Assembly (NCBI GenBank): GCA_021299095.1
Contig: JAJTFW010000006.1
Location: 1-52,793 of the forward strand
Reading direction: 5' to 3'
Source: Sphingobacteriales bacterium
GTDB lineage: Bacteria > Bacteroidota > Bacteroidia > AKYH767-A > OLB10
Length of the DNA stretch: 52,793 nucleotides
Below, in pieces: positions 37,684 to 50,882 of the stretch (its first letter is position 1; every line of letters starts with the position of its first letter). The position numbers were made by a program, and so were the translations under genes. The notes under the pieces are model-generated. The model did not search any database, was not told the origin of the DNA, and was given only the letters and a program-made list of their open reading frames with translations.

Positions 37684-38184
37684 ATGTACACAGTGCAACT
37701 TTCAGGCGGAAAAGAACTCCGTATCGAGCAGGAGTCTGGAAACCTGCTCATCGATGGCCAAAACCATTCGTACACGCTCAGCGAACTGCGCCCGGGATCG
37801 TATCACCTTCTGATGGATGGGAAGACCCATTCGGTCGAAGTGCTGGAGTCGGATCGGACCTCGAAACAATACCTCTTGCGCATCAATGGAAAGACGGTCA
37901 ACGTCGGACTGCGTGACCGCTTCGACGACTTGCTTAAGCGATTGGGAATGGATGGTGGTGGCACCCAGAAAACCGGCCACCTAAAAGCGCCCATGCCCGG
38001 GCTCGTCGTTGATGTTCCGGTGAGCGAAGGGCAGTCGATAGCCAAAGGTGATACGTTGCTTGTGCTCGAAGCGATGAAAATGGAAAATGCGCTTAAGGCC
38101 GCCGCCGATGCCACAGTCAAAAAAATCCTCGTAAAGAAAGGGCAGGCCGTGGAAAAAAACACCGTACTGATTGAACTTGTTTAA
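37684..38184 (+). CDS. Biotin carboxyl carrier protein (acyl-CoA carboxylase subunit)
   Basis: 166 aa from the ATG at 37684. The first 80 residues are beta-rich (MYTVQLSGGKELRIEQ, YLLRINGKTVNVGLRDRFDDLL), as in the N-terminal part of separate propionyl-/methylmalonyl-type carrier subunits. The C-terminal biotinyl domain (about 100-166) has the attachment site K132 in VLEAMKMENAL and the hairpin APMPGLVVDVPVSEG. It carries CO2 on biotin between carboxylase and transferase subunits, which are not in the window. A role in propionyl-CoA carboxylation would fit meaB but is inference. The exported SOD gene starts 10 bp after its stop. Confidence 0.9.
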   Translation: MYTVQLSGGKELRIEQESGNLLIDGQNHSYTLSELRPGSYHLLMDGKTHSVEVLESDRTSKQYLLRINGKTVNVGLRDRFDDLLKRLGMDGGGTQKTGHLKAPMPGLVVDVPVSEGQSIAKGDTLLVLEAMKMENALKAAADATVKKILVKKGQAVEKNTVLIELV

Positions 38185-38194
38185 TTTCATTACC

Positions 38195-38896
38195 ATGGAA
38201 ACTCCTTTCTCACGTCGTCGCTTTTTACAACTGGGTGTATTATCAGCCGGAGCACTCATCACGCTTCCCAAAATTGGATTTTCGCTCGGCCACGAGCATG
38301 CCAATTTCGTGTTGGATCCTCTGCCATATGCAACCAATGCACTCGAACCCCATATCGATGCCATGACGATGGAGATCCACCACAGCCGTCACCACAAGGC
38401 ATACGTCGACAACCTGAATCGTCTCTGCAACGAAAATCATGTCCATGAACTTTCTCTGGAAGTTATCCTAGCCAATATATCAAAGTATCCGGTTGGTATT
38501 CGGAACAACGGAGGCGGCCACTGGAACCACCGTTTTTTCTGGAATAGCATGAAACCGAACTCCACTGGGCCCAATGGGAAAGTGAAGGATGCACTTAGTG
38601 CTGCGTTTGGCGACTTGGACACCTTCAAGACACGGTTTACCGATGCAGCTAAATCACGATTTGGCAGTGGCTGGGCCTGGTTGGTGCGAATGCCCGACGG
38701 GAAGCTGGGCATTGGTTCAACACCGAATCAGGACAATCCCCTGATGGATGTTTCTGAACTCAGGGGAACTCCGATTCTCGGTCTTGATGTTTGGGAACAT
38801 GCTTACTACCTCAAATACCAGAACAAACGCCCGGATTACATCAATGCTTGGTGGAATGTGGTCGACTGGGATGCTGTAGCCTCAAGACTGGGATGA
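38195..38896 (+). CDS. sodA: Tat-exported superoxide dismutase (Mn/Fe type)
   Basis: 233 aa from the ATG at 38195. The N-terminus is a textbook twin-arginine signal (SRRRFLQLGVLSAGALITLP). Mature part: metal-binding His residues in MEIHHSRHHKAYV and GGGHWNHRFFW, and the Asp/His pair in LDVWEHAYYLKY. The NNGGGH and NQDNPLM segments favour the manganese or cambialistic type over iron. It converts superoxide to O2 and H2O2, here in the periplasm or envelope instead of the cytosol. It follows the biotin carrier gene by 10 bp and ends in a strong terminator. Confidence 0.93.
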   Translation: METPFSRRRFLQLGVLSAGALITLPKIGFSLGHEHANFVLDPLPYATNALEPHIDAMTMEIHHSRHHKAYVDNLNRLCNENHVHELSLEVILANISKYPVGIRNNGGGHWNHRFFWNSMKPNSTGPNGKVKDALSAAFGDLDTFKTRFTDAAKSRFGSGWAWLVRMPDGKLGIGSTPNQDNPLMDVSELRGTPILGLDVWEHAYYLKYQNKRPDYINAWWNVVDWDAVASRLG

Positions 38897-39951: not shown

Positions 39952-41379
39952 ATGTCAATCCAACGCCCTTCAGCCACCCTGCCAATCCTCATTTCGGTTT
40001 TCTTCTTTTGGGGGTTTGTCGCTGCCAGCAACGACATCCTGATTCCCGTATTCAAACAGCAACTCAAACTGGAACAGTGGCAGAGCCAGATGATCAGCTT
40101 TGCTTTTTATGTGGCCTACACGGTGGGTTCACTACTCTATGTGCTGATTAGCCGCATCATTGGTGAGGATTTGCTCAACCGCCTGGGATACAAAAATGGC
40201 ATTGCACTCGGATTGGTGATTTCAGCGCTGGGAACCTTGTTGTTTTATCCGGCTGCCGAAACCGCATCATTCGGTTTGATGATCAGTGGACTGTTCATTG
40301 TCGGGCTTGGGTTTTCGCTGCAGCAAACCGCTGCCAATCCCCTCGTGATCACCATAGGAGATCCGCGAAAAGGGGCACAGCGCCTCAGCTTGGCCGGTGG
40401 TATTAACAACATTGGGACTACCATCGGTCCTGTAATCGTCAGTTTTGCACTTTTTGGGTCCATTGCCGGATCAAACCTCGATTCCCTGTCGGCTGTGAAG
40501 GGGCCTTATCTCATCCTAGGAGCTGCGTTCCTGTTGGTTGCCTTACTCTTCAAGTTCTCATCACTTCCCAATCAAATCGCACACGGCGAGCGTGACACCG
40601 AGACCACCGCTGTTGAGGGGTCAGCATTCAAATTTCCTCAGCTCCGCCTCGGGATGATTGCCATATTCCTTTACGTAGGGGTGGAGGTTTCCACTGCATC
40701 GAACCTGCCGGAATACATGCGTGTCTACCTGAATACACCCGTCAATGAGATTGCGCCGTATGTGTCCTTGTTTTGGGCAAGCCTGATGATTGGCCGTTGG
40801 ACCGGAGCTGTAGGCAGTTTCGGTGTCAAACCAAGCCTAGCCAAGGTGTTAAATGTGCTTCTTCCATACCTTGCTTTCGGTATTTTTCTTTTTGTCAATG
40901 CAATAGGAGGTCACGACATTACTCCATTCCCAATTTATGCAGCAGTCATCGTCGTCTTGATTCTTGCCGATTACCTAAGCAAGGGCGATCCGGCGAAGCA
41001 ACTTCTCATTTTTTCACTTTGTGGTATAGCCTCGCTTATAATCGGTATGCTGAGCGAAGGCATGTTTGCCGTGTATGCATTCATCAGTGTGGGACTTTTC
41101 TGTTCTACCTTATGGCCATGCATATTCACATTGGCCATTGCTGGTCTGGGAAAGCACACCAACCAGGGTTCGGGCTTACTGATTATGATGATCATGGGCG
41201 GAGGCTTTGTGAGTCTGCTGCAAGGCTGGCTTGCCGATGATCAATTGCTCAGTATTCGGTACAGTTATCTGGTTGGAGTTGCCTGCTTCGCTTATCTCGC
41301 TTGGTACGCCGTGAAGGTGAGTCAATTACTCAGGCAACGGGGCATTGCGTACCATTCATCACCGGAAACAGAGGCATAA
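39952..41379 (+). CDS. Sugar MFS permease, FucP/NagP family (probably N-acetylglucosamine)
   Basis: 475 aa from the ATG at 39952. A longer frame to 39817 lacks a credible start. Twelve hydrophobic helices. The first contains FFFWGFVAASNDILIPVFK, the hallmark of the FucP/GluP/NagP branch of H+-sugar symporters; the LGFSLQQTAANPLVITIGDP loop and later LPEYMRVYLNTP segment also fit. It lies in the inner membrane. The GH20 gene follows by 3 bp, so GlcNAc freed by the neighbouring enzymes is the likely substrate, though mannose or another hexose is possible. It is the first gene of the N-glycan operon. Confidence 0.9.
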   Translation: MSIQRPSATLPILISVFFFWGFVAASNDILIPVFKQQLKLEQWQSQMISFAFYVAYTVGSLLYVLISRIIGEDLLNRLGYKNGIALGLVISALGTLLFYPAAETASFGLMISGLFIVGLGFSLQQTAANPLVITIGDPRKGAQRLSLAGGINNIGTTIGPVIVSFALFGSIAGSNLDSLSAVKGPYLILGAAFLLVALLFKFSSLPNQIAHGERDTETTAVEGSAFKFPQLRLGMIAIFLYVGVEVSTASNLPEYMRVYLNTPVNEIAPYVSLFWASLMIGRWTGAVGSFGVKPSLAKVLNVLLPYLAFGIFLFVNAIGGHDITPFPIYAAVIVVLILADYLSKGDPAKQLLIFSLCGIASLIIGMLSEGMFAVYAFISVGLFCSTLWPCIFTLAIAGLGKHTNQGSGLLIMMIMGGGFVSLLQGWLADDQLLSIRYSYLVGVACFAYLAWYAVKVSQLLRQRGIAYHSSPETEA

Positions 41380-41382
41380 GGA

Positions 41383-43623
41383 ATGAGAAAGGGACCGCTC
41401 TACTGGATTCTGTTCATCCTGATTGCTGATTGTTCAGCCCACGCCGCCGGCGACGAAAACAGGATTCCTGCGCTTATTCCAGCTCCGAACAAAATCGAAA
41501 TCCACAATGGACACTTTGCAATCACATCACGTACCGTCTTACTGGCCGAAGGCGAAGCCCTGCCTGCCGCACGTTTACTGAACCACTGGCTGGGCTTGAG
41601 TGGTCTGGATACACTACCTATCCGTTCGGTCTCTTCTCCACGCACTCCGTTTGTCGCCTTTAGTATCAATAGCGATACTGCTGAAGCGTATAGCTTACGC
41701 ATCAAACCCGGGTCAATCACATTGAGTGGAAGTGTAAGTGGTCTGCTGCGCGGCACCTCGACGCTTTTTCAGCTCCTGGTCTCGGCTTCGGGCGGGAAAA
41801 TACCCTGCCTGGGCATTCAGGATCAACCGAAATTCGCATACCGTGGTGTTCACCTGGATGTGTGCAGGCATTTCATGCCGAAGGAGTTCGTGTTGCGATA
41901 CATCGATATCCTTGCGTTGCACAAAATGAACACCTTTCACTGGCACCTGACCGAAGACCAGGGCTGGCGTATTGAAATCCGCCGGTATCCTGAATTGACC
42001 CGGAAGGGTGCATGGCGACAGGGCAGTATGATCGGCCCCTACCGTGACCAGCGCTTCGATAGTATTCCGCACGGTGGATTTTATACGCAGGAAGAAATCC
42101 GTGAAGTGGTTCGCTATGCGCAGGATAGAGGCATTACCGTTATTCCGGAAATTGAAATGCCCGGACATGCAATGGCAGCCCTCGCTGCGTACCCGCAGTA
42201 TTCCTGCACCGGACGTGTAACGGAAGTTGCCCGAGGATGGGGTGTGTTTGATGATGTCTTCTGTGTGAATGATTCCACTTTCGCGTTTTTAGAAGGAGTT
42301 CTCACCGAAGTGATGGAGCTTTTTCCCTCCAGGTATATTCACATCGGTGGCGACGAATGTCCCAAAACGCGCTGGAAGGAATGCCCGAAGTGTCAGGCAA
42401 CGATGAAGGCCAATGGCTTGCGCGATGAACATGAATTGCAAAGTCATTTTATTCGGCGGATTGAACGCTTCCTGAATGGTGCCGGACGTCAGATCATCGG
42501 CTGGGATGAAATACTAGAAGGTGGATTGGCTCCCAACGCAACCGTCATGAGTTGGCGGGGCACAGAGGGCGGAATTGCAGCTGCACGCGATAGCCATCAG
42601 GTGGTGATGACACCGGGTTCACATTGTTACTTTGACCATTATCAGGGCGAGCGTAACACCGAACCGCTGGCCATCGGTGGCTATACACCGCTCGAGAAAG
42701 TCTATGCTTACCGGCCCATCCCCGCTGAACTCAATGCGAATGAGGCCAGGTATATTGTCGGTGCGCAGGCCAATGTATGGACCGAATACATGTACGATAC
42801 CAAGCAAGTCGAATACATGTTGTTGCCCAGGCTTTGTGCATTTAGCGAGGTGTTGTGGACCGATACCTCGCTTCACAATCTCAATGATTTTTATAGTCGG
42901 CTTACACCGTATCAGCAGGTACTGAAAGGATGGGGCCTGAATTATTCAACCACCTGGTTGCTTCCCGATTATCGCATTGAACCGGGTACACGTCCGGGTA
43001 CGCTCATGTTCAGTTTGCAATCCAAAGTTCCGCAGCAACTCGAATCCGCCTGGGGTACACCCGATACAAAACCTGTTTTTTCTTCCTATACGGGCCCAAT
43101 TGCGTTAGAAAGCAACGGTACACTTTATATTCGGAGCAACACTTCCGGAACAGTCAAAACCCAGTCCTTCGAATTCGAATTCAGTAAAGCTGCCGGTGCT
43201 ACGGTAACGCTCGAACCGGAAGGCGACAAGGCATATCGGAATCCCGGATCGGTGTTGACCGATGCGCGGATAGGAAGTCTACCCTGGACAGGCAAGCAAT
43301 GGGTGGGTTGGCTCGGCAAAGAACCCACCATTACACTCGACCTCGGTCGTTCAGTTCGCATTGACAGCGTTGCTATAACATACCTGCATGATCCTGTCAG
43401 TTGGATTCATGCGCCCCGTGCCTGTACAGCTTCGGTTGATACCCGTGAAACACGGGTGGAGACTGGTATTCCCGCAAACGGAATCGGTCGTATTGTGATT
43501 CCTGTCGATGAATCCATCGACAAGCTATTTATTACGGTAGAAAGTATCGGAAAGAATCCGGAGGGAAACGCTGGTGCAGGCGAAGATGGCTGGATATTCA
43601 TATCTGAAATACAGGTGTATTAA
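41383..43623 (+). CDS. GH20 beta-N-acetylhexosaminidase, exported
   Basis: 746 aa. Signal peptide about 1-22. GH20b alpha/beta domain (about 28-150), then the TIM barrel: YRGVHLDVCRHF (153-164), MNTFHWHLTEDQGWRIEI (182-199), EIEMPGHAMAALAAYP (256-271) and the catalytic pair D324-E325 in HIGGDECPKTRW. The C-terminal region after about 560 contains a chitobiase-type beta domain and an F5/8-like carbohydrate-binding module (EPTITLDLGRSVRIDSVAITYL). It removes terminal GlcNAc or GalNAc by substrate-assisted catalysis, probably in the periplasm. It has no T9SS tail. It follows the permease by 3 bp and precedes the beta-mannosidase by 21 bp. Confidence 0.95.
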   Translation: MRKGPLYWILFILIADCSAHAAGDENRIPALIPAPNKIEIHNGHFAITSRTVLLAEGEALPAARLLNHWLGLSGLDTLPIRSVSSPRTPFVAFSINSDTAEAYSLRIKPGSITLSGSVSGLLRGTSTLFQLLVSASGGKIPCLGIQDQPKFAYRGVHLDVCRHFMPKEFVLRYIDILALHKMNTFHWHLTEDQGWRIEIRRYPELTRKGAWRQGSMIGPYRDQRFDSIPHGGFYTQEEIREVVRYAQDRGITVIPEIEMPGHAMAALAAYPQYSCTGRVTEVARGWGVFDDVFCVNDSTFAFLEGVLTEVMELFPSRYIHIGGDECPKTRWKECPKCQATMKANGLRDEHELQSHFIRRIERFLNGAGRQIIGWDEILEGGLAPNATVMSWRGTEGGIAAARDSHQVVMTPGSHCYFDHYQGERNTEPLAIGGYTPLEKVYAYRPIPAELNANEARYIVGAQANVWTEYMYDTKQVEYMLLPRLCAFSEVLWTDTSLHNLNDFYSRLTPYQQVLKGWGLNYSTTWLLPDYRIEPGTRPGTLMFSLQSKVPQQLESAWGTPDTKPVFSSYTGPIALESNGTLYIRSNTSGTVKTQSFEFEFSKAAGATVTLEPEGDKAYRNPGSVLTDARIGSLPWTGKQWVGWLGKEPTITLDLGRSVRIDSVAITYLHDPVSWIHAPRACTASVDTRETRVETGIPANGIGRIVIPVDESIDKLFITVESIGKNPEGNAGAGEDGWIFISEIQVY

Positions 43624-43644: not shown

Positions 43645-46215
43645 ATGAATACCGTTTTCAGGACACTGGTATCGGTGCTTGTTTTTACTATGCAAGTTGC
43701 TTCTGCGCAGGAACAAATTCTTACGCTAAGCGACTGGACCTACAAAAAGTCCGGTTCAAAGGATAGTCGAAAGGCCGTCGTGCCTGGCTGTGTGCATCTC
43801 GATCTGATGCGCGATGGTCTGGTAAAAGATCCTTTGAAAAACAACAATGCCGCAGCTCAAAAATGGATTTCAGAAACTGCCTGGACCTACGAAACGCGCT
43901 TTCGCTGTGATTCAATTTTTATAACAGCTGCGGAGCAGTTGTTGCAATTCGATGGACTCGATACCTATGCAAAAGTGTATCTGAATGACTCCCTGATTCT
44001 AAGTGCAGACAACATGTTCAGAAGTTGGTCTGTTTCTGTTTCGGGGAAGTTGAAACAGGAAAATCACCTGCGGATTGAATTCACGCCAACAATCAACGTT
44101 GCTGCGGATTTAGCCAAACAACTACCCTACACCTTGCCCGAGGGCTTACGCAGTTTTACCCGTAAAGCGCAGTATGTATATGGATGGGATTGGGCTCCTG
44201 AACTCAACAGTTGTGGTATTTGGAAGCCTGTTCGTTTGAAGGCAAACCAGCGTATCAGGCTATACGATTTGACTATTCGCCAGGCGTCATTTCGGCTGGA
44301 TACGGCCAACGTATTGGTATCCCTGCAATATGGAGGAGTTCAGCGATTCCCAAAGTTGTCGTACGGTAAGGTGGGAGATAAACCTGAAGTGGTGGACGCA
44401 AAAGAGCTGTTTGAGTTGAGAGATGAATCGGGTCGGCTCCTGCATCGTTTTTCAGTAGATACGCTTGCTCATACGGTTGAAGCGGACGGTACATATCGGG
44501 TGGAGTTTCCCTTGCAGTTTACAGGATTTCAGGCCTGGCATATGAGTGGTCATGGCATACAGCACTTGCATCGGTTTTCGTGTACGCTGCAAGGCGATCG
44601 TTCACAAGCTGTTTCCTGCACCACAGGATTCCGTTCCCTCGAGTTTATCAACCAGACCGACAGCTTGGGCGCCGCATTCGGTTTCAGGGTGAATGGAAGG
44701 GATGTTTTCATTCGCGGAGCCAATCTGGTACCACCTGATCCATTTCCTTCACGCATTGGCGATGCAGAATGTGAAGTGCTTGTTCGCAAAGCGCGCGAAG
44801 CGAATTTCAATATGCTTCGGGTTTGGGGTGGAGGAATCTATCTTCCAGAGTCTTTTTATAATGCCTGCGATCAAAACGGGATTCTTGTTTGGCAGGATTT
44901 CATGTCGGCCTGCAGCATGGTTCCCGGTGATTCGAACTTTCGTGAATCCTTTCGGCAAGAAGCCATCGAACATGTTCGGCGCTTATCCAAACATCCTTGC
45001 ATGGCCTTGTGGTGCGGCAACAATGAAAACGACGAAGGTTGGCACAATTGGGGCTGGCAGCGTCAGTATGGTTACACGCCCGAGGACTCGGCGCGTATCT
45101 GGAACGACTACCTCAAGGTGTTTCATCAGATTCTACCAGAAGTGGTACAGGCACACGATCCACGGATCTCCTACTGGCCATCATCGCCATCGATTGGATG
45201 GGGGCGTCCAGAGAGCATGATGAAAGGGGATTCGCATTACTGGGGTGTGTGGTGGGGAATGGAGCCCTTTGCTACATACCGTCGGAAAACAGGTCGCTTC
45301 ATGAGCGAATACGGCTTTCAGTCCATGCCCGAAGCTTCTTCATGGAAAAACTGGGTTGACACCCTGTCCTTTAAAGCAACCGGATTTCGAGCACACCAGA
45401 AGCATCCTCGCGGATTTGAAACGATTGACGAATACTTGCGCATACACTTCGGAACACCCGTTCGCTTTATCGATTATCCTTACATGAGTCAGCTACAACA
45501 GGCTTATGGACTTGATGTTGCATTTGCTGCTCACCGGTCCGCATATCCGAATTGTCGAGGAACCCTTTTTTGGCAATGGAACGATTGCTGGCCTGCAGTC
45601 TCGTGGAGTGCAATCGATCACCTTGAGCGGCCCAAACTTCTTGTGCATGCGGCCCGTCAGGCCTTCGACAGTCTCTTCGTGGGAGTCAGCGAGCGTGACG
45701 GGCAACTCGTCACACCTTTGCATTTCGATGGGAAAACTGAAGTCAGCTTGAACATCAGACTGATGTTTCTCAACATTGCAGACAGCCTGGCTTCACCGGT
45801 TATATTGGATGAGCGCCGCTTGCGTGTTCGACCCGACACCGCAATCGCTTCCGTGGTATCCTATCCATTGGCATTGCTCCGAAACCTGAAGTCGGCTGAG
45901 ACGGTCTATTACGTAGAGGTGGAGGATAACTTCACGTTCAGAATCCTCTATAGGCGATTTCACCTTCCGGTACTTCCGCGGGAACTCCTTCTCCTTAAGC
46001 CCGAAATTTCTCTGCATGCGTACGATGACCAAACGCTCCTGATGGTTTCAGACCGATTCACCTATGGGGTCTACTTGTATGAACCCTCCGGGAAAGCCGA
46101 ATACTCCGATAACGGATTCAATCTCATGCCCGGTGAAATCAAGAGAATCACTGTTAAGGGGGTAGATCCGGCGTCGGTGAAGTGGAAGACATACAACACC
46201 ATGGAACGTAAATGA
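43645..46215 (+). CDS. GH2 beta-mannosidase, exported
   Basis: 856 aa. Signal peptide about 1-21 (VFTMQVASAQ). Jelly-roll sugar-binding domain (about 25-200: LSDWTYKKSG, VPGCVHLDLMRDGL, YVYGWDWAPELNSCGIW), an Ig-like domain and the TIM barrel, with acid/base E461 in WCGNNENDE and nucleophile E555 in FMSEYGFQSMPE. The spacing between the two glutamates is what I expect for Bacteroides beta-mannosidases. It hydrolyses the Man-beta-1,4-GlcNAc bond of the N-glycan core. It is positioned between hexosaminidase and alpha-mannosidase genes. No endoglycosidase accompanies it. Confidence 0.95.
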   Translation: MNTVFRTLVSVLVFTMQVASAQEQILTLSDWTYKKSGSKDSRKAVVPGCVHLDLMRDGLVKDPLKNNNAAAQKWISETAWTYETRFRCDSIFITAAEQLLQFDGLDTYAKVYLNDSLILSADNMFRSWSVSVSGKLKQENHLRIEFTPTINVAADLAKQLPYTLPEGLRSFTRKAQYVYGWDWAPELNSCGIWKPVRLKANQRIRLYDLTIRQASFRLDTANVLVSLQYGGVQRFPKLSYGKVGDKPEVVDAKELFELRDESGRLLHRFSVDTLAHTVEADGTYRVEFPLQFTGFQAWHMSGHGIQHLHRFSCTLQGDRSQAVSCTTGFRSLEFINQTDSLGAAFGFRVNGRDVFIRGANLVPPDPFPSRIGDAECEVLVRKAREANFNMLRVWGGGIYLPESFYNACDQNGILVWQDFMSACSMVPGDSNFRESFRQEAIEHVRRLSKHPCMALWCGNNENDEGWHNWGWQRQYGYTPEDSARIWNDYLKVFHQILPEVVQAHDPRISYWPSSPSIGWGRPESMMKGDSHYWGVWWGMEPFATYRRKTGRFMSEYGFQSMPEASSWKNWVDTLSFKATGFRAHQKHPRGFETIDEYLRIHFGTPVRFIDYPYMSQLQQAYGLDVAFAAHRSAYPNCRGTLFWQWNDCWPAVSWSAIDHLERPKLLVHAARQAFDSLFVGVSERDGQLVTPLHFDGKTEVSLNIRLMFLNIADSLASPVILDERRLRVRPDTAIASVVSYPLALLRNLKSAETVYYVEVEDNFTFRILYRRFHLPVLPRELLLLKPEISLHAYDDQTLLMVSDRFTYGVYLYEPSGKAEYSDNGFNLMPGEIKRITVKGVDPASVKWKTYNTMERK

Positions 46216-46231: not shown

Positions 46232-49150
46232 ATGAACTTCAGGATTTCAATTGCATCGTTTCTGGTCTTTTTCTCGTGTTGTATGCTTCATGCACAGGAT
46301 CTGACGCGGTATGTGGATCCCATGACCGGGACCGGTGGTGTAGGACATACCTATCCGGGCGCTACACTTCCCTATGGTATGGTTCAGCTAAGTCCCGATA
46401 CGCGTCGTGATGCCAGCTGGGAGGGATGCGCCGGCTATTACCATGCCGATAGTTTGATCTATGGTTTCACACATACGCATCTGTCAGGTACCGGATGCTC
46501 GGACTACGGAGATATCCTTATCATGCCCTTTACGGGTGCGCCTGATTTCAATCCCGAAGGATACGCTTCCCGCTACAGGCATTCGGACGAGCGTTCGGAG
46601 CCCGGATATTATGCCGTATACCTCAGCGATGACAGCATCCGTGCAGACTTCACAGCTACAGAGCGAACGGGGTTACACCGTTACCGTTATCCAGCCACCA
46701 ACACCGATCAGCGCCAGGTGCTGATTGACCTTCGGCACCGCGATAAAACATTGGGCGCATCGTTTCGGTACGTCAGCCCGACACGTGTTGAGGGGTATCG
46801 ACACAGTGAGGCCTGGGCGAAGGATCAGTATGTATTCTTCTGCATGGAATTTTCTCAACCTTTGAATCAATGCCTTAGTAATCGTGAGGGTAAAATACTC
46901 AAGCAAGGAATGCAATTCGAAGGCAGCGATCTGGCCTTTGCACTGAGATTTTCCAGTGGAAAAGGTCCCGTTATGATCAAAGTCGGCATATCGACTGTAG
47001 ATGTGGAGGGAGCACGGAAAAATCTTCAAAGTGAGTTGCCGGCTTGGGATTTTGAGCGTGTTCGCATGGGAGCCCGCGCAGCCTGGAACCGCGAATTGGG
47101 TCGGATTCGTGTGAGTGGGAGTGATCGCGAGGATCTGGTTAATTTTTATACGGCACTTTATCACACGATGGTGGTTCCGAATATGATTTCGGATGTGGAT
47201 GGACGTTATAGAGGACGTGATAACCGGATTCATACCGCTAAAGGCCATGTGCAATACACCGTGTTCAGTCTTTGGGATACCTTTCGAGCCGCGCATCCCC
47301 TTTACGCACTCATCGACAAACCCAGAACACTCGATTACATCCGCACATTTCTGAACCAGTACAAACAAGGTGGACGTCTGCCGGTGTGGGAACTTGGTGC
47401 CAACGAAACCGATTGTATGATCGGATACCACAGCATTCCAGTCATTACCGATGCGCTTGTAAAAGGCATCGGCGGATTCGACACCCTGCTAGCGTTCGAA
47501 GCCATGAAGAAAAGTGCCAACTGGAATCATTACGGATTACCTTCCTATGTTGTGCGTGGTTACATGGGTGTGGAAGACGAACATGAATCTGTATCGAAGA
47601 CACTTGAGTACGCGTACGATGACTGGTGTATTGCAGAGGTAGCCCGCATGTTGAGGAAGAACGATGATATGAACCTCTACTACAAAAGGGCTTCATCATA
47701 CCGCAATGTGTACGATCCGGAAACCGGATTTATGCGTCCCCGCAGAAACGGAGGCTTCCTCCCGCGCTTCGATCCGCGCGAAGTCAACAATCATTATACG
47801 GAGGCGAACAGTTGGCAATATTCGTTTTTTGTTCCCCAGGACATTCCAGGCCTGATCGATTTGATGGGAGGTCCGGACGAGGCCGAAAAGAAACTCGATG
47901 GGCTATTCACGGAATCATCGCAAACCACCGGTCGAACCCAGGCTGATATCACCGGATTGATCGGACAGTACGCACACGGAAACGAGCCCAGTCACCATAT
48001 GGCCTATTTGTACAACTACATCGGGAAGCCTTGGAAAACACAGCGGCTGGTGAGGCAGATCATGGACAGCTTGTATCATCCCGGACCCGAAGGACTCCCT
48101 GGCAATGAAGATTGCGGACAAATGTCAGCCTGGTTTGTATGGAGTGCAATGGGATTGTACCCCGTCACTCCGGGTAGTCCATTCTATGCCATCGGTACAC
48201 CGCTGTTCGACACCACATTGGTCACACTCGGTCCAGGTAAAACCCTGCGCATCGTGGCTCGGCGTGAAACAAGCGGATCCAGATATGTGAAACGCCTGAC
48301 CATTGATGGGAAACCGGTTGAAAGCAATCTGCTCACCCATCAGGATTTGCTGGCCGCAAAAGAAATCAGATTCGAACTCGTTGCTGAACCCTTCATGAAT
48401 CGGGGTATTACGCCGGAGCGAAGGGGTGCGATGCCCAGCGGTGGATTTACCGCGGCACCTGTGATTTCGGCTAAGGACAGGCTCTTCGCTGACAGCCTTC
48501 AGATCACCATGACAGGAACAAACATCCGGTATAGTACGAGTGGTGATTCCCTTCAACTCGATAAAACGTACGTGGAGCCAATCATGATTCATGCTTCTAC
48601 CGTTGTGCATGCCCGCTGTATGGCTTCCGGGGCTTCCGAGGCGCCCAGCGGCCTGAGCTCAGCCGCGTATTTTAAAGTTCCGTCCCGTTGGGAGGTCGTA
48701 TTGCACAGCACACCAAACCGACAATACATGGCCGAAGGCCCTGCATCCATAATTGATGGGATTCGTGGTTCGACCAACTGGAGAAAGGGCGATTGGCACG
48801 GATACCAAGGTCAGGACATGGATGTTGAAATTCGTTTCGATCAGCTTCAGGAAATCCGCTCCGTCGAAACCGGATTCCTGCAGGATGTGCGCCCCTGGAT
48901 TTTTTATCCGAAGGATATGCGTGTTGAAATTTCCGAGGATGGTGTACAATGGCGCAACATGGGACAAGCCACCCATGCCATTTCTGATTCATCCATGGAT
49001 GCCCAGCAAATGGTGCTTCGTGTTGAATTCAGTCCGGTAAAGGCGAAGGCAGTACGGATCAAGGCAAGTAACTATGGGAAACTTCCTGCCTGGCATCCCG
49101 GAGCTGGTTTTGATGCCTTCATCTTCTGTGATGAGATCATTGTTCGTTAA
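46232..49150 (+). CDS. GH92 alpha-mannosidase, exported
   Basis: 972 aa. Signal peptide about 1-21. The N-terminal beta domain begins YVDPMTGTGGVGHTYPGATLPYG. The helical catalytic part holds the family marks: PVWELGANETDCMIGYHS with E387, GNEPSHHMAYLYNY with E585, and GNEDCGQMSAWFVWSAMGLYP (from 624). An added discoidin-like module (about 840-970: EIRFDQLQEIRSVETGF, KAVRIKASNYGKLP) is preceded by a chitobiase-like segment. Known role: Ca2+-dependent removal of alpha-1,2 and other alpha-linked mannoses from N-glycans. It lies 16 bp after the beta-mannosidase gene. Linkage specificity cannot be read from the sequence. Confidence 0.95.
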   Translation: MNFRISIASFLVFFSCCMLHAQDLTRYVDPMTGTGGVGHTYPGATLPYGMVQLSPDTRRDASWEGCAGYYHADSLIYGFTHTHLSGTGCSDYGDILIMPFTGAPDFNPEGYASRYRHSDERSEPGYYAVYLSDDSIRADFTATERTGLHRYRYPATNTDQRQVLIDLRHRDKTLGASFRYVSPTRVEGYRHSEAWAKDQYVFFCMEFSQPLNQCLSNREGKILKQGMQFEGSDLAFALRFSSGKGPVMIKVGISTVDVEGARKNLQSELPAWDFERVRMGARAAWNRELGRIRVSGSDREDLVNFYTALYHTMVVPNMISDVDGRYRGRDNRIHTAKGHVQYTVFSLWDTFRAAHPLYALIDKPRTLDYIRTFLNQYKQGGRLPVWELGANETDCMIGYHSIPVITDALVKGIGGFDTLLAFEAMKKSANWNHYGLPSYVVRGYMGVEDEHESVSKTLEYAYDDWCIAEVARMLRKNDDMNLYYKRASSYRNVYDPETGFMRPRRNGGFLPRFDPREVNNHYTEANSWQYSFFVPQDIPGLIDLMGGPDEAEKKLDGLFTESSQTTGRTQADITGLIGQYAHGNEPSHHMAYLYNYIGKPWKTQRLVRQIMDSLYHPGPEGLPGNEDCGQMSAWFVWSAMGLYPVTPGSPFYAIGTPLFDTTLVTLGPGKTLRIVARRETSGSRYVKRLTIDGKPVESNLLTHQDLLAAKEIRFELVAEPFMNRGITPERRGAMPSGGFTAAPVISAKDRLFADSLQITMTGTNIRYSTSGDSLQLDKTYVEPIMIHASTVVHARCMASGASEAPSGLSSAAYFKVPSRWEVVLHSTPNRQYMAEGPASIIDGIRGSTNWRKGDWHGYQGQDMDVEIRFDQLQEIRSVETGFLQDVRPWIFYPKDMRVEISEDGVQWRNMGQATHAISDSSMDAQQMVLRVEFSPVKAKAVRIKASNYGKLPAWHPGAGFDAFIFCDEIIVR

Positions 49151-49180: not shown

Positions 49181-50191
49181 ATGAAACGCCGGAAATTCAT
49201 CACACAGTCCCTTTTGGGCTCAGGAGCCATCCTGCTTGCTACAAAACAAGCTCGTGCTTTAGCATCTCCTGCTGCAGAGGCTGGGTCGCCGCTTGTCATT
49301 TCGACCTGGGCCCCCAATGTGAAGGCCAACGCAAAAGCCTGGGAAGTTTTATCGACAGGTGGACGTGCCCTCGATGCTGTTGAACGCGGTGTGATGGTTC
49401 CAGAGGCCGATCCTGAAGATACAAGTGTTGGATATGGAGGGTTGCCTGATCGCGATGGTCGTGTGACGCTTGATTCATGCATTATGGATGAAGCTGGTAA
49501 TATCGGATCCGTCATGTGTCTAGAGCACATCATGCATCCGATTCGCGTTGCCCGCATGGTGATGGAAAAGACGCCACATGTAATTCTGGTGGGTGAGGGT
49601 GCCTTGCAGTTTGCTTTGGCCAACGGATTCCAGAAACAGGATTTGCTGACTGAAAATTCTCGGCGAATCTGGAAGCAATGGCTTCAGGAGTCTAAGTACG
49701 ATCCAATGGACACCTTGAAACACATGAAGGAGTATAAAGCACCGGGAGGAAAGGAAAACCACGATACAATCGGTATGCTTGCACTTGACAGGAACGGAAA
49801 TATAAGTGGTGCATGTACCACCAGTGGTATGGCCTTCAAAATGCATGGGCGTGTCGGTGATTCTCCAGTAATTGGTGCCGGACTTTATGTCGACAATGCA
49901 GTTGGTGCTGCAACGGCTACCGGTGTTGGTGAGGAGGTCATCCGGATTTGCGGATCACATACTGTTGTAGAAGCTATGCGTTATGGAAAAACACCACGAG
50001 AAGCATGCAAGATTGCGGTTGAACGTATGCTCAGTTTGCGTCGTGGTAAAATCGAAGGCAAGCAAATCGGATTTATTGCCATCAACAAAAAAGGAGAGGT
50101 CGGTGCATTTGCTCTGCAATCCGGATTCACCTACGCCTTGCGGACTGCCGTGGGAAAAGATATAGTGATGGAATCCGAATTCCTGATTTAA
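49181..50191 (+). CDS. N4-(beta-N-acetylglucosaminyl)-L-asparaginase (glycosylasparaginase), Tat-exported
   Basis: 336 aa. Twin-arginine signal (MKRRKFITQSLLGSGAILLA). It is an Ntn-hydrolase precursor: autocleavage is expected between D195 and T196 in GKENHDTIGMLAL, freeing Thr196 as nucleophile. Other conserved parts: STW near residues 41-43, GGRALDAVERG (60-70), SVGYGGLPDRDG (82-93), DSCIMD (98-103) and the GDSPVIGAGLYVDN loop (226-239) of the beta chain. It hydrolyses GlcNAc-Asn to aspartate and 1-amino-GlcNAc, which breaks down to GlcNAc and ammonia. It closes the glycan breakdown sequence coded by the upstream genes. The cutC gene starts 4 bp after its stop. Confidence 0.95.
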   Translation: MKRRKFITQSLLGSGAILLATKQARALASPAAEAGSPLVISTWAPNVKANAKAWEVLSTGGRALDAVERGVMVPEADPEDTSVGYGGLPDRDGRVTLDSCIMDEAGNIGSVMCLEHIMHPIRVARMVMEKTPHVILVGEGALQFALANGFQKQDLLTENSRRIWKQWLQESKYDPMDTLKHMKEYKAPGGKENHDTIGMLALDRNGNISGACTTSGMAFKMHGRVGDSPVIGAGLYVDNAVGAATATGVGEEVIRICGSHTVVEAMRYGKTPREACKIAVERMLSLRRGKIEGKQIGFIAINKKGEVGAFALQSGFTYALRTAVGKDIVMESEFLI

Positions 50192-50195
50192 CGCC

Positions 50196-50882
50196 ATGAC
50201 GCTGGAATTAGCCGTTTTTGATCTCGGTTCACTTCAGGTAGCCGAAAAGCTCCGCATTCCACGCATCGAGTTGTGTATTGATTATAAGGCCGGAGGCATT
50301 ACACCTCCGCTTGATATCCTGCTTGAAGCGAGATCGCAGTATTCGGGTCTGATCTATGTGATGATACGCCCACGCGGTGGCGATTTTGTGTACTCCTTAG
50401 AGGAGCAACGCCACCTGCTGGATCAGGCCCGTGCAATGGTCTGCACCGGAGCTGATGGATTGGTCACCGGTTTTTTGAACGAACAAAGCCAGATTGACGA
50501 GCAACTGCTTAAGCAATTCATGGATGTGGCGGAGCACTTGCCTGTGACCTTTCACCGGGCCTTTGATCGCTGTGAAGATCCGTTTGGCTCACTCGACATG
50601 CTTATGCGTTACGGAATACGTCGTGTGCTGTCAAGTGGAGGAACCTCAACTGCTGCAGAATCGATTGATCGCTTATGTTCGTATCAACTGCACTGTGCTG
50701 AGCGATTGACGGTGCTTGCGGGTGGCGGCGTTCGCTCGGCCAATATCCGAACCTTGCTTAATGCCGGTCATATTCGGGAGGTTCATACCGCCGCCATCGT
50801 ACCTGAAACTCTTGATAAAGGGATGTATGTGGCCGACAGACACGAGCTGGAATCGTTACTCGTTTCGATCGGAAACCAGTAA
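50196..50882 (+). CDS. cutC: CutC family TIM-barrel protein
   Basis: 228 aa, no signal, so cytosolic. It has the family marks: ELC(I) with Cys27 (RIELCIDYKAGGITPP), YVMIRPRGGDFVYS, GADGLVTGFL, VTFHRAFDRCEDP, GIRRVLSSGGTSTA, LAGGGVRSANI and VHTAA. These lie at the ends of barrel strands, where catalytic residues sit. CutC was named for copper homeostasis, but the evidence for copper binding is weak in general and no His/Cys/Met cluster is seen here. It starts 4 bp after the glycosylasparaginase, so it is likely to work on a product of that pathway; this is inference. Confidence 0.92.
   Translation: MTLELAVFDLGSLQVAEKLRIPRIELCIDYKAGGITPPLDILLEARSQYSGLIYVMIRPRGGDFVYSLEEQRHLLDQARAMVCTGADGLVTGFLNEQSQIDEQLLKQFMDVAEHLPVTFHRAFDRCEDPFGSLDMLMRYGIRRVLSSGGTSTAAESIDRLCSYQLHCAERLTVLAGGGVRSANIRTLLNAGHIREVHTAAIVPETLDKGMYVADRHELESLLVSIGNQ

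Follow-up and report, generated by a model that had tools for sequence, protein, structure and literature searches.

The cutC gene adjoins glycosylasparaginase and amino-sugar genes in two bacterial phyla and probably encodes an uncharacterised enzyme of sugar metabolism

The window analysed in this study is a 52,793-bp stretch of a metagenome-assembled genome (MAG) of a Sphingobacteriales bacterium. Close to its end, six genes lie on the forward strand with successive gaps of 3, 21, 16, 30 and 4 bp, encoding an MFS sugar transporter of the GluP/NagP/FucP group (39952..41379; start codon inferred, the frame being open back to 39817), a GH20 beta-hexosaminidase (41383..43623; 746 aa), a GH2 beta-mannosidase-like protein carrying Glyco_hydro_2_N2 and Ig_mannosidase domains (43645..46215; 856 aa), a GH92 glycosyl hydrolase of the alpha-mannosidase family (46232..49150; 972 aa; TIGR01180 697 bits against a cut-off of 249.55; signal peptide, as judged by eye), a glycosylasparaginase (AGA; 49181..50191; 336 aa) and CutC (50196..50882; 228 aa). 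The transporter scored 185.4 bits with gluP and 176.5 bits with NagP, both under the curated cut-offs. In agreement with the first-pass annotation, cutC starts 4 bp past the AGA stop and no copper gene is included in this run. A simple scan of the AGA/cutC junction gave no promoter and no convincing terminator, which is weak evidence either way. Beside the operon, the ORF at 38171-38896 reads, by eye, as an exported iron/manganese superoxide dismutase.

The gene run looks like an N-glycan operon. The roles of GH92, the GH2 mannosidases, GH20 and AGA are established at the family level, and judging from these families the encoded enzymes could remove mannose, hexosamine and lastly Asn from an N-glycan. 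The AGA of this operon carries a Tat-like RR signal, and shows both hallmarks of glycosylasparaginase, the PF01112 domain (E 1.4e-73) and the HDT autoproteolysis motif, the latter being found in 54 of 54 cutC-adjacent AGAs; its family and its separation from isoaspartyl peptidases suggest activity on GlcNAc-Asn. Within the source MAG (96% complete), none of PF01182 (NagB), PF00480 (ROK) and PF01869 (BadF) was detected, although GH20 and a NagP-like permease are encoded, while SIS-domain genes are present; either other kinase and deaminase families serve in this organism, or the missing genes reflect the incompleteness of the MAG.

The product of cutC is the single PF03932 member in the whole source MAG (2.5 Mb), and in the Pfam profile search it matched this TIM-barrel family over residues 2-201 with E 3.2e-50 (170.9 bits against a gathering cut-off of 23.3). 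The score with NF008603, the equivalog of E. coli-type CutC, was 156.8 bits and stayed under the curated cut-off of 311. On the CutC tree the source protein forms a long branch, and it deviates from the family by G20R, A21I, M74L, D77Q, G156S and C6A, with all the mouth residues kept; the family-invariant residues E4, R23, E25, D124, G148 and H197 are all present. It carries no signal peptide, from which we infer a cytoplasmic location, and we propose it as a candidate cytoplasmic enzyme of amino-sugar metabolism. A fusion of CutC with a sugar gene was looked for in one long frame (locus L204), which encodes CutC alone.

The AlphaFold model of CutC is a TIM barrel (mean pLDDT 95.8, pTM 0.92) matching the solved CutC structures at Z 28-35. 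E. coli/Shigella CutC (1twd/1x7i) and human CUTC (3iwp, Z 34.9) share this fold at Z 34-35, with rmsd 1.4-1.6 over 224-227 residues, 34-35% identity and the same invariant residues; the E. coli gene differs in its yecM-cutC context from the source gene, which lies in an AGA/N-glycan operon and encodes Ala at position 6 on a long branch. All the motifs pointed out in the first-pass annotation were found, ELC at 25-27, RPRGG at 58-62, HRAFD at 120-124, SSGG at 146-149, AGGGV at 175-179 and HTAA at 197-200. Its proposal of an active-site-like mouth is likewise supported, as 17 of the 27 columns conserved at 90% or more are located, in the predicted structure, at the C-terminal strand ends on the active-site side (p 2e-4). 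The near-invariant residues at the strand ends are E25, R58, R60, H120, R121, D124, S147, G148, G176, G178 and H197.

The best match of the model outside the CutC family was the 4-HFC-P synthase MfnB (MJ1099, 4rc1/4u9p; Z 20.2, 215 residues aligned at 15% identity), followed by hexulose-6-P synthase, DeoC, TrpF, HisA, KGPDC, PdxJ and OMP decarboxylase. The nearest folds in the model comparison thus belong to enzymes whose substrates are phosphorylated, although a common fold is no proof of function. In many phosphate-binding TIM barrels, strand 7 is followed by a glycine-rich loop and strand 8 bears a conserved residue. CutC has both features, and the fold neighbours and the residues G176, G178 and H197 would be compatible with a putative phosphate site at the strand 7/8 loops of the model. 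The catalytic residue of MfnB, a type I aldolase, is Lys155 (PMC11365854), whereas across 155 CutCs no Lys column reaches 80% conservation. The absence of a conserved lysine makes Schiff-base (class I) aldolase chemistry of the DeoC or MfnB type unlikely. The conserved carboxylates, histidines and arginines of CutC would suit an acid-base mechanism, with a substrate that is anionic or a sugar.

The first-pass annotation suggested that CutC may be a metabolic enzyme tied to glycosylasparaginase. Its neighbours were counted across Bacteroidota in 296 evenly sampled genomes, of which 92 carry cutC; about 9 kb on either side of 94 cutC loci were taken, the neighbours were clustered and compared with the window proteins, and the window was added to give 95 loci. 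An AGA-type gene was located within 3 genes of cutC in 47 of the 95 loci, against about 0.2 loci expected by chance, and every AGA of these 47 loci lies within this distance. AGA occupies the position directly upstream of cutC in 39 loci (34 on the same strand, 5 on the opposite strand). The next commonest near neighbours, a TonB receptor, argS and ACP synthase III, were found in 10-13 loci each and look lineage-specific. Other glycan genes recur less often, with the GH2 mannosidase in 10 loci, GH20 in about 10 and GH92 in 9, and a NagB-PIG-L fusion cluster is represented in 5 loci, 2 of these within 3 genes. One such gene (L035:6826-8778), adjoining cutC, encodes a NagB domain fused to a PIG-L GlcNAc de-N-acetylase domain. 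About half of the Bacteroidota cutC loci carry no sugar neighbour.

The proximity of AGA and cutC was found in 30 of 58 genera and in 12 of the 21 cutC-bearing families of Bacteroidota, so that, together with the parallel amino-sugar context in Pseudomonadota, the conservation reaches well beyond the source genome. When adjacency to AGA was mapped on the CutC tree, 21 changes were needed by parsimony as compared with 44 after shuffling, and at least 13 of the changes are forced by well-supported branches. Adjacency is therefore not one inherited cassette; it is partly inherited, yet has been gained or lost many times. As a separate observation, argS is found near cutC in 12 of the 95 Bacteroidota loci (10 within 3 genes; for instance L063, L068, L073, L079, L105 and L110), and together with yecM, in a different arrangement, in 11 of 60 Pseudomonadota loci (L159-L180 range); the recurrence in both phyla is possibly a coincidence.

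Co-occurrence over whole genomes was analysed in the same sample. Since the PF01112 profile does not tell AGA from isoaspartyl peptidases, the window AGA itself served as the query, true AGAs giving E values up to about 1e-60 and isoaspartyl peptidases E values of 1e-45 or higher. AGA was present in 90 of 92 genomes with cutC and in 56 of 204 genomes without it (Fisher 7e-34; the p-values ignore kinship, for which a within-family contrast and the CutC tree served as safeguards). The difference holds within the class of the source genome (60/62 with cutC versus 0/11 without), outside this class (30/30 versus 56/193) and inside one single family, f5 (22/22 versus 0/7). The relation is one-sided in that AGA is nearly required by cutC but cutC is not required by AGA. 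GH92 was also considered as the true partner of cutC and was rejected; its odds ratio was 7 as against 119 for AGA, and the link to AGA persists among genomes lacking GH92 (29/29 versus 41/158).

For a view of the cutC context independent of this sample, we used annotated plasmids, together with 299 sampled Pseudomonadota genomes, of which 60 carry cutC. On the plasmids, cutC lies near some of nagA, nagB, an SIS-domain isomerase, a ROK/BadF kinase, murQ and GH20 in the genera that follow. The plasmids of Loktanella and Peteryoungia carry the order GH20-M81-MFS-cutC, with nagB in addition in Loktanella; that of Kozakia carries nagA, gluP and ROK, then cutC-GH20, and nagB; Sinorhizobium pSymB carries amidase-ROK-cutC adjoining nagA, SIS and GlcNAc kinase genes; a Sphingomonas plasmid carries cutC, GntR, SIS and nagA; those of Paracoccus (two species) and Qingshengfaniella carry SIS or murQ, ROK, cutC, Gfo/Idh and a sugar ABC system; and in Pseudoalteromonas and Asticcacaulis cutC is followed by a BadF-type kinase. 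In Hymenobacter, AGA-cutC is found together with GH92/GH2. No context of the sugar type was found for cutC in Enterococcus, Cetobacterium, Entomospira, Parabacteroides and E. coli. Among the 60 Pseudomonadota loci, AGA is adjacent in 7, with ROK, NagA, SIS, BadF, GH2 or GH92 near cutC in further loci, the enterobacterial yecM-argS-cmoAB context accounts for 11, and about half show none of the listed contexts. The amino-sugar neighbours (nagA, nagB/SIS, ROK/BadF and GH20) belong mainly to Alphaproteobacteria; most beta- and gammaproteobacterial loci are without a sugar neighbour, with peroxiredoxin, LysR or GNAT genes at some. The alphaproteobacterial nag/aga operons, in which cutC adjoins the ROK kinase, NagA, SIS/NagB or GH20, thus share the amino-sugar link with the source operon but differ from it in carrying neither AGA nor mannosidases in the stretches seen. 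In several of the GH20/ROK/cutC cassettes of Alphaproteobacteria, an M81 family 'metallopeptidase' gene recurs (L132, L135, L140 and L175), which suggests that this protein may also act on an amino-sugar compound.

The adjacency to AGA, the co-occurrence with AGA and the amino-sugar context in Pseudomonadota bear out the proposed tie to glycosylasparaginase, and we consider it likely, irrespective of the exact reaction, that CutC is an enzyme of amino-sugar catabolism. Counting against this reading are the many loci in both phyla without sugar genes near cutC, the lack of NagB, ROK and BadF matches in the source MAG, the copper phenotypes of human and worm knock-downs, and the iron-stimulon entry of the B. 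thetaiotaomicron gene described below. As cutC stands beside genes for GlcNAc-chain-degrading enzymes in dozens of unrelated bacteria, it is probably an uncharacterised enzyme of sugar metabolism whose copper name is wrong. We lean, with modest confidence, to the wider reading that CutC is an unrecognised enzyme of GlcNAc catabolism, such as a hexosamine(-phosphate) isomerase, epimerase or anomerase or a 1-amino-GlcNAc hydrolase, and that the copper annotation is wrong for the whole family. In the proposed scheme, exported GH92, GH2, GH20 and AGA would dismantle the N-glycan, the MFS permease would bring the released sugar into the cell, and cytoplasmic CutC would come in at the kinase step or close to it, with GlcNAc or a phosphosugar derived from it as substrate. 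This substrate class is suggested by the gene context; the reaction itself is a guess that we advance tentatively, namely an acid-base isomerisation, epimerisation or anomerisation, at C1 or C2, of the amino sugar (best guess, GlcNAc) or its 6-phosphate, which would feed the kinase/NagA/NagB route or clean up the material entering it. In the open-access literature searched, CutC was not connected with glycosylasparaginase or the Nag pathway in any paper found, which is not in itself proof of novelty.

In very many genomes CutC bears a copper-protein annotation, and tables of human copper proteins list it as well. With its firm amino-sugar context in two phyla, the family acquires a biochemical role that can be tested, and this context also points to a missing step in the bacterial use of N-glycans and GlcNAc. 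Reassignment would correct the gene inventories used for inferring metal resistance, and the human CUTC orthologue could be re-examined in GlcNAc salvage.

Another explanation of the neighbourhood is that CutC serves generally in metabolite repair or housekeeping, the clustering with glycan genes then reflecting the high side-product load of glycan users and not a place in the pathway. The wide occurrence of CutC, including E. coli, Enterococcus and human, and the many loci with unrelated neighbours agree with this explanation, but cutC is missing from 204 of 296 Bacteroidota and 239 of 299 Pseudomonadota genomes, and such a patchy distribution, nearly restricted in Bacteroidota to genomes with AGA, is unlike that of a housekeeping gene; we regard this explanation as unlikely.

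CutC might instead handle 1-amino-GlcNAc, the immediate product of AGA, for example by hydrolysis to GlcNAc and ammonia. AGA is the commonest immediate neighbour of cutC and is encoded in nearly all the genomes with cutC. In the excerpted text of PMC6960285, the 1-amino-GlcNAc step is held to be non-enzymatic, and the compound to be not metabolizable and unstable at acid pH, which leaves room for an enzyme. The bacterial AGA pathway described there, with the Lactobacillus casei alf-2 cluster and the Elizabethkingia AGA, yields GlcNAc from GlcNAc-Asn and proceeds to a sugar kinase; L. casei AsnA2 is intracellular, unlike the exported-looking AGA herein described, and CutC is not mentioned for the L. 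casei pathway in this excerpt (PMC6960285). Against this possibility, 50 of the 54 neighbouring AGAs have a Tat-like N-terminus with RR whereas CutC is without export signal, so that 1-amino-GlcNAc would have to be imported intact. Moreover, AGA is present without cutC in 56 Bacteroidota genomes, and cutC is included in nagA/nagB/ROK/GH20 operons lacking AGA, which indicates that the common denominator is GlcNAc or an amino sugar, not 1-amino-GlcNAc. GlcNAc, which was among the substrates initially suggested, or a GlcNAc-derived phosphosugar is therefore the better candidate, and a specific role in 1-amino-GlcNAc conversion appears quite improbable.

The annotated function, copper homeostasis, agrees with the gene name, with the higher copper sensitivity of human cells and C. 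elegans after CUTC knock-down and with weak Cu(I) binding in the micromolar range, although a review of the eukaryotic proteins judged CUTC to be neither a chaperone, a transporter nor a buffer (PMC11083455). In E. coli, the copper-sensitive phenotype of cutC mutants is reported to arise entirely because the sRNA MicL, encoded in the same locus, is inactivated (PMC6538781). Hardly any copper gene lies around cutC in either phylum, with 0 of 95 Bacteroidota loci having one within 3 genes and, across 60 Pseudomonadota loci, 2 CopA, 2 RND and 1 multicopper-oxidase match within this distance. The only close copper-exporter ATPase neighbours, CopA-like and at +3, are in the Pseudomonadota loci L187 and L189, both with AGA at -1. 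Cu ATPases are near universal (279 of 296 Bacteroidota genomes), and their co-occurrence with cutC thus cannot support a copper role. The earlier remark that no Cys/His/Met cluster is visible holds in part, since conservation of C27, H120 and H197 reaches 95-99%, with H197 invariant; C27 and H197 may speak for a copper role. A second cysteine is frequent in the family (65% of sequences) at position 6, where the source CutC has Ala; this cysteine is present in 21 of 54 AGA-linked CutCs as compared with 79 of 101 others, and hence missing from 33 and 22, respectively. The Cys pair at positions 6 and 27 is presumably the copper site proposed for the human protein. Taken together, a copper-homeostasis function of CutC is very improbable. 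With respect to metals, the B. thetaiotaomicron cutC gene, BT4416, is among the entries tabulated for the iron-dependent stimulon (PMC10434189).
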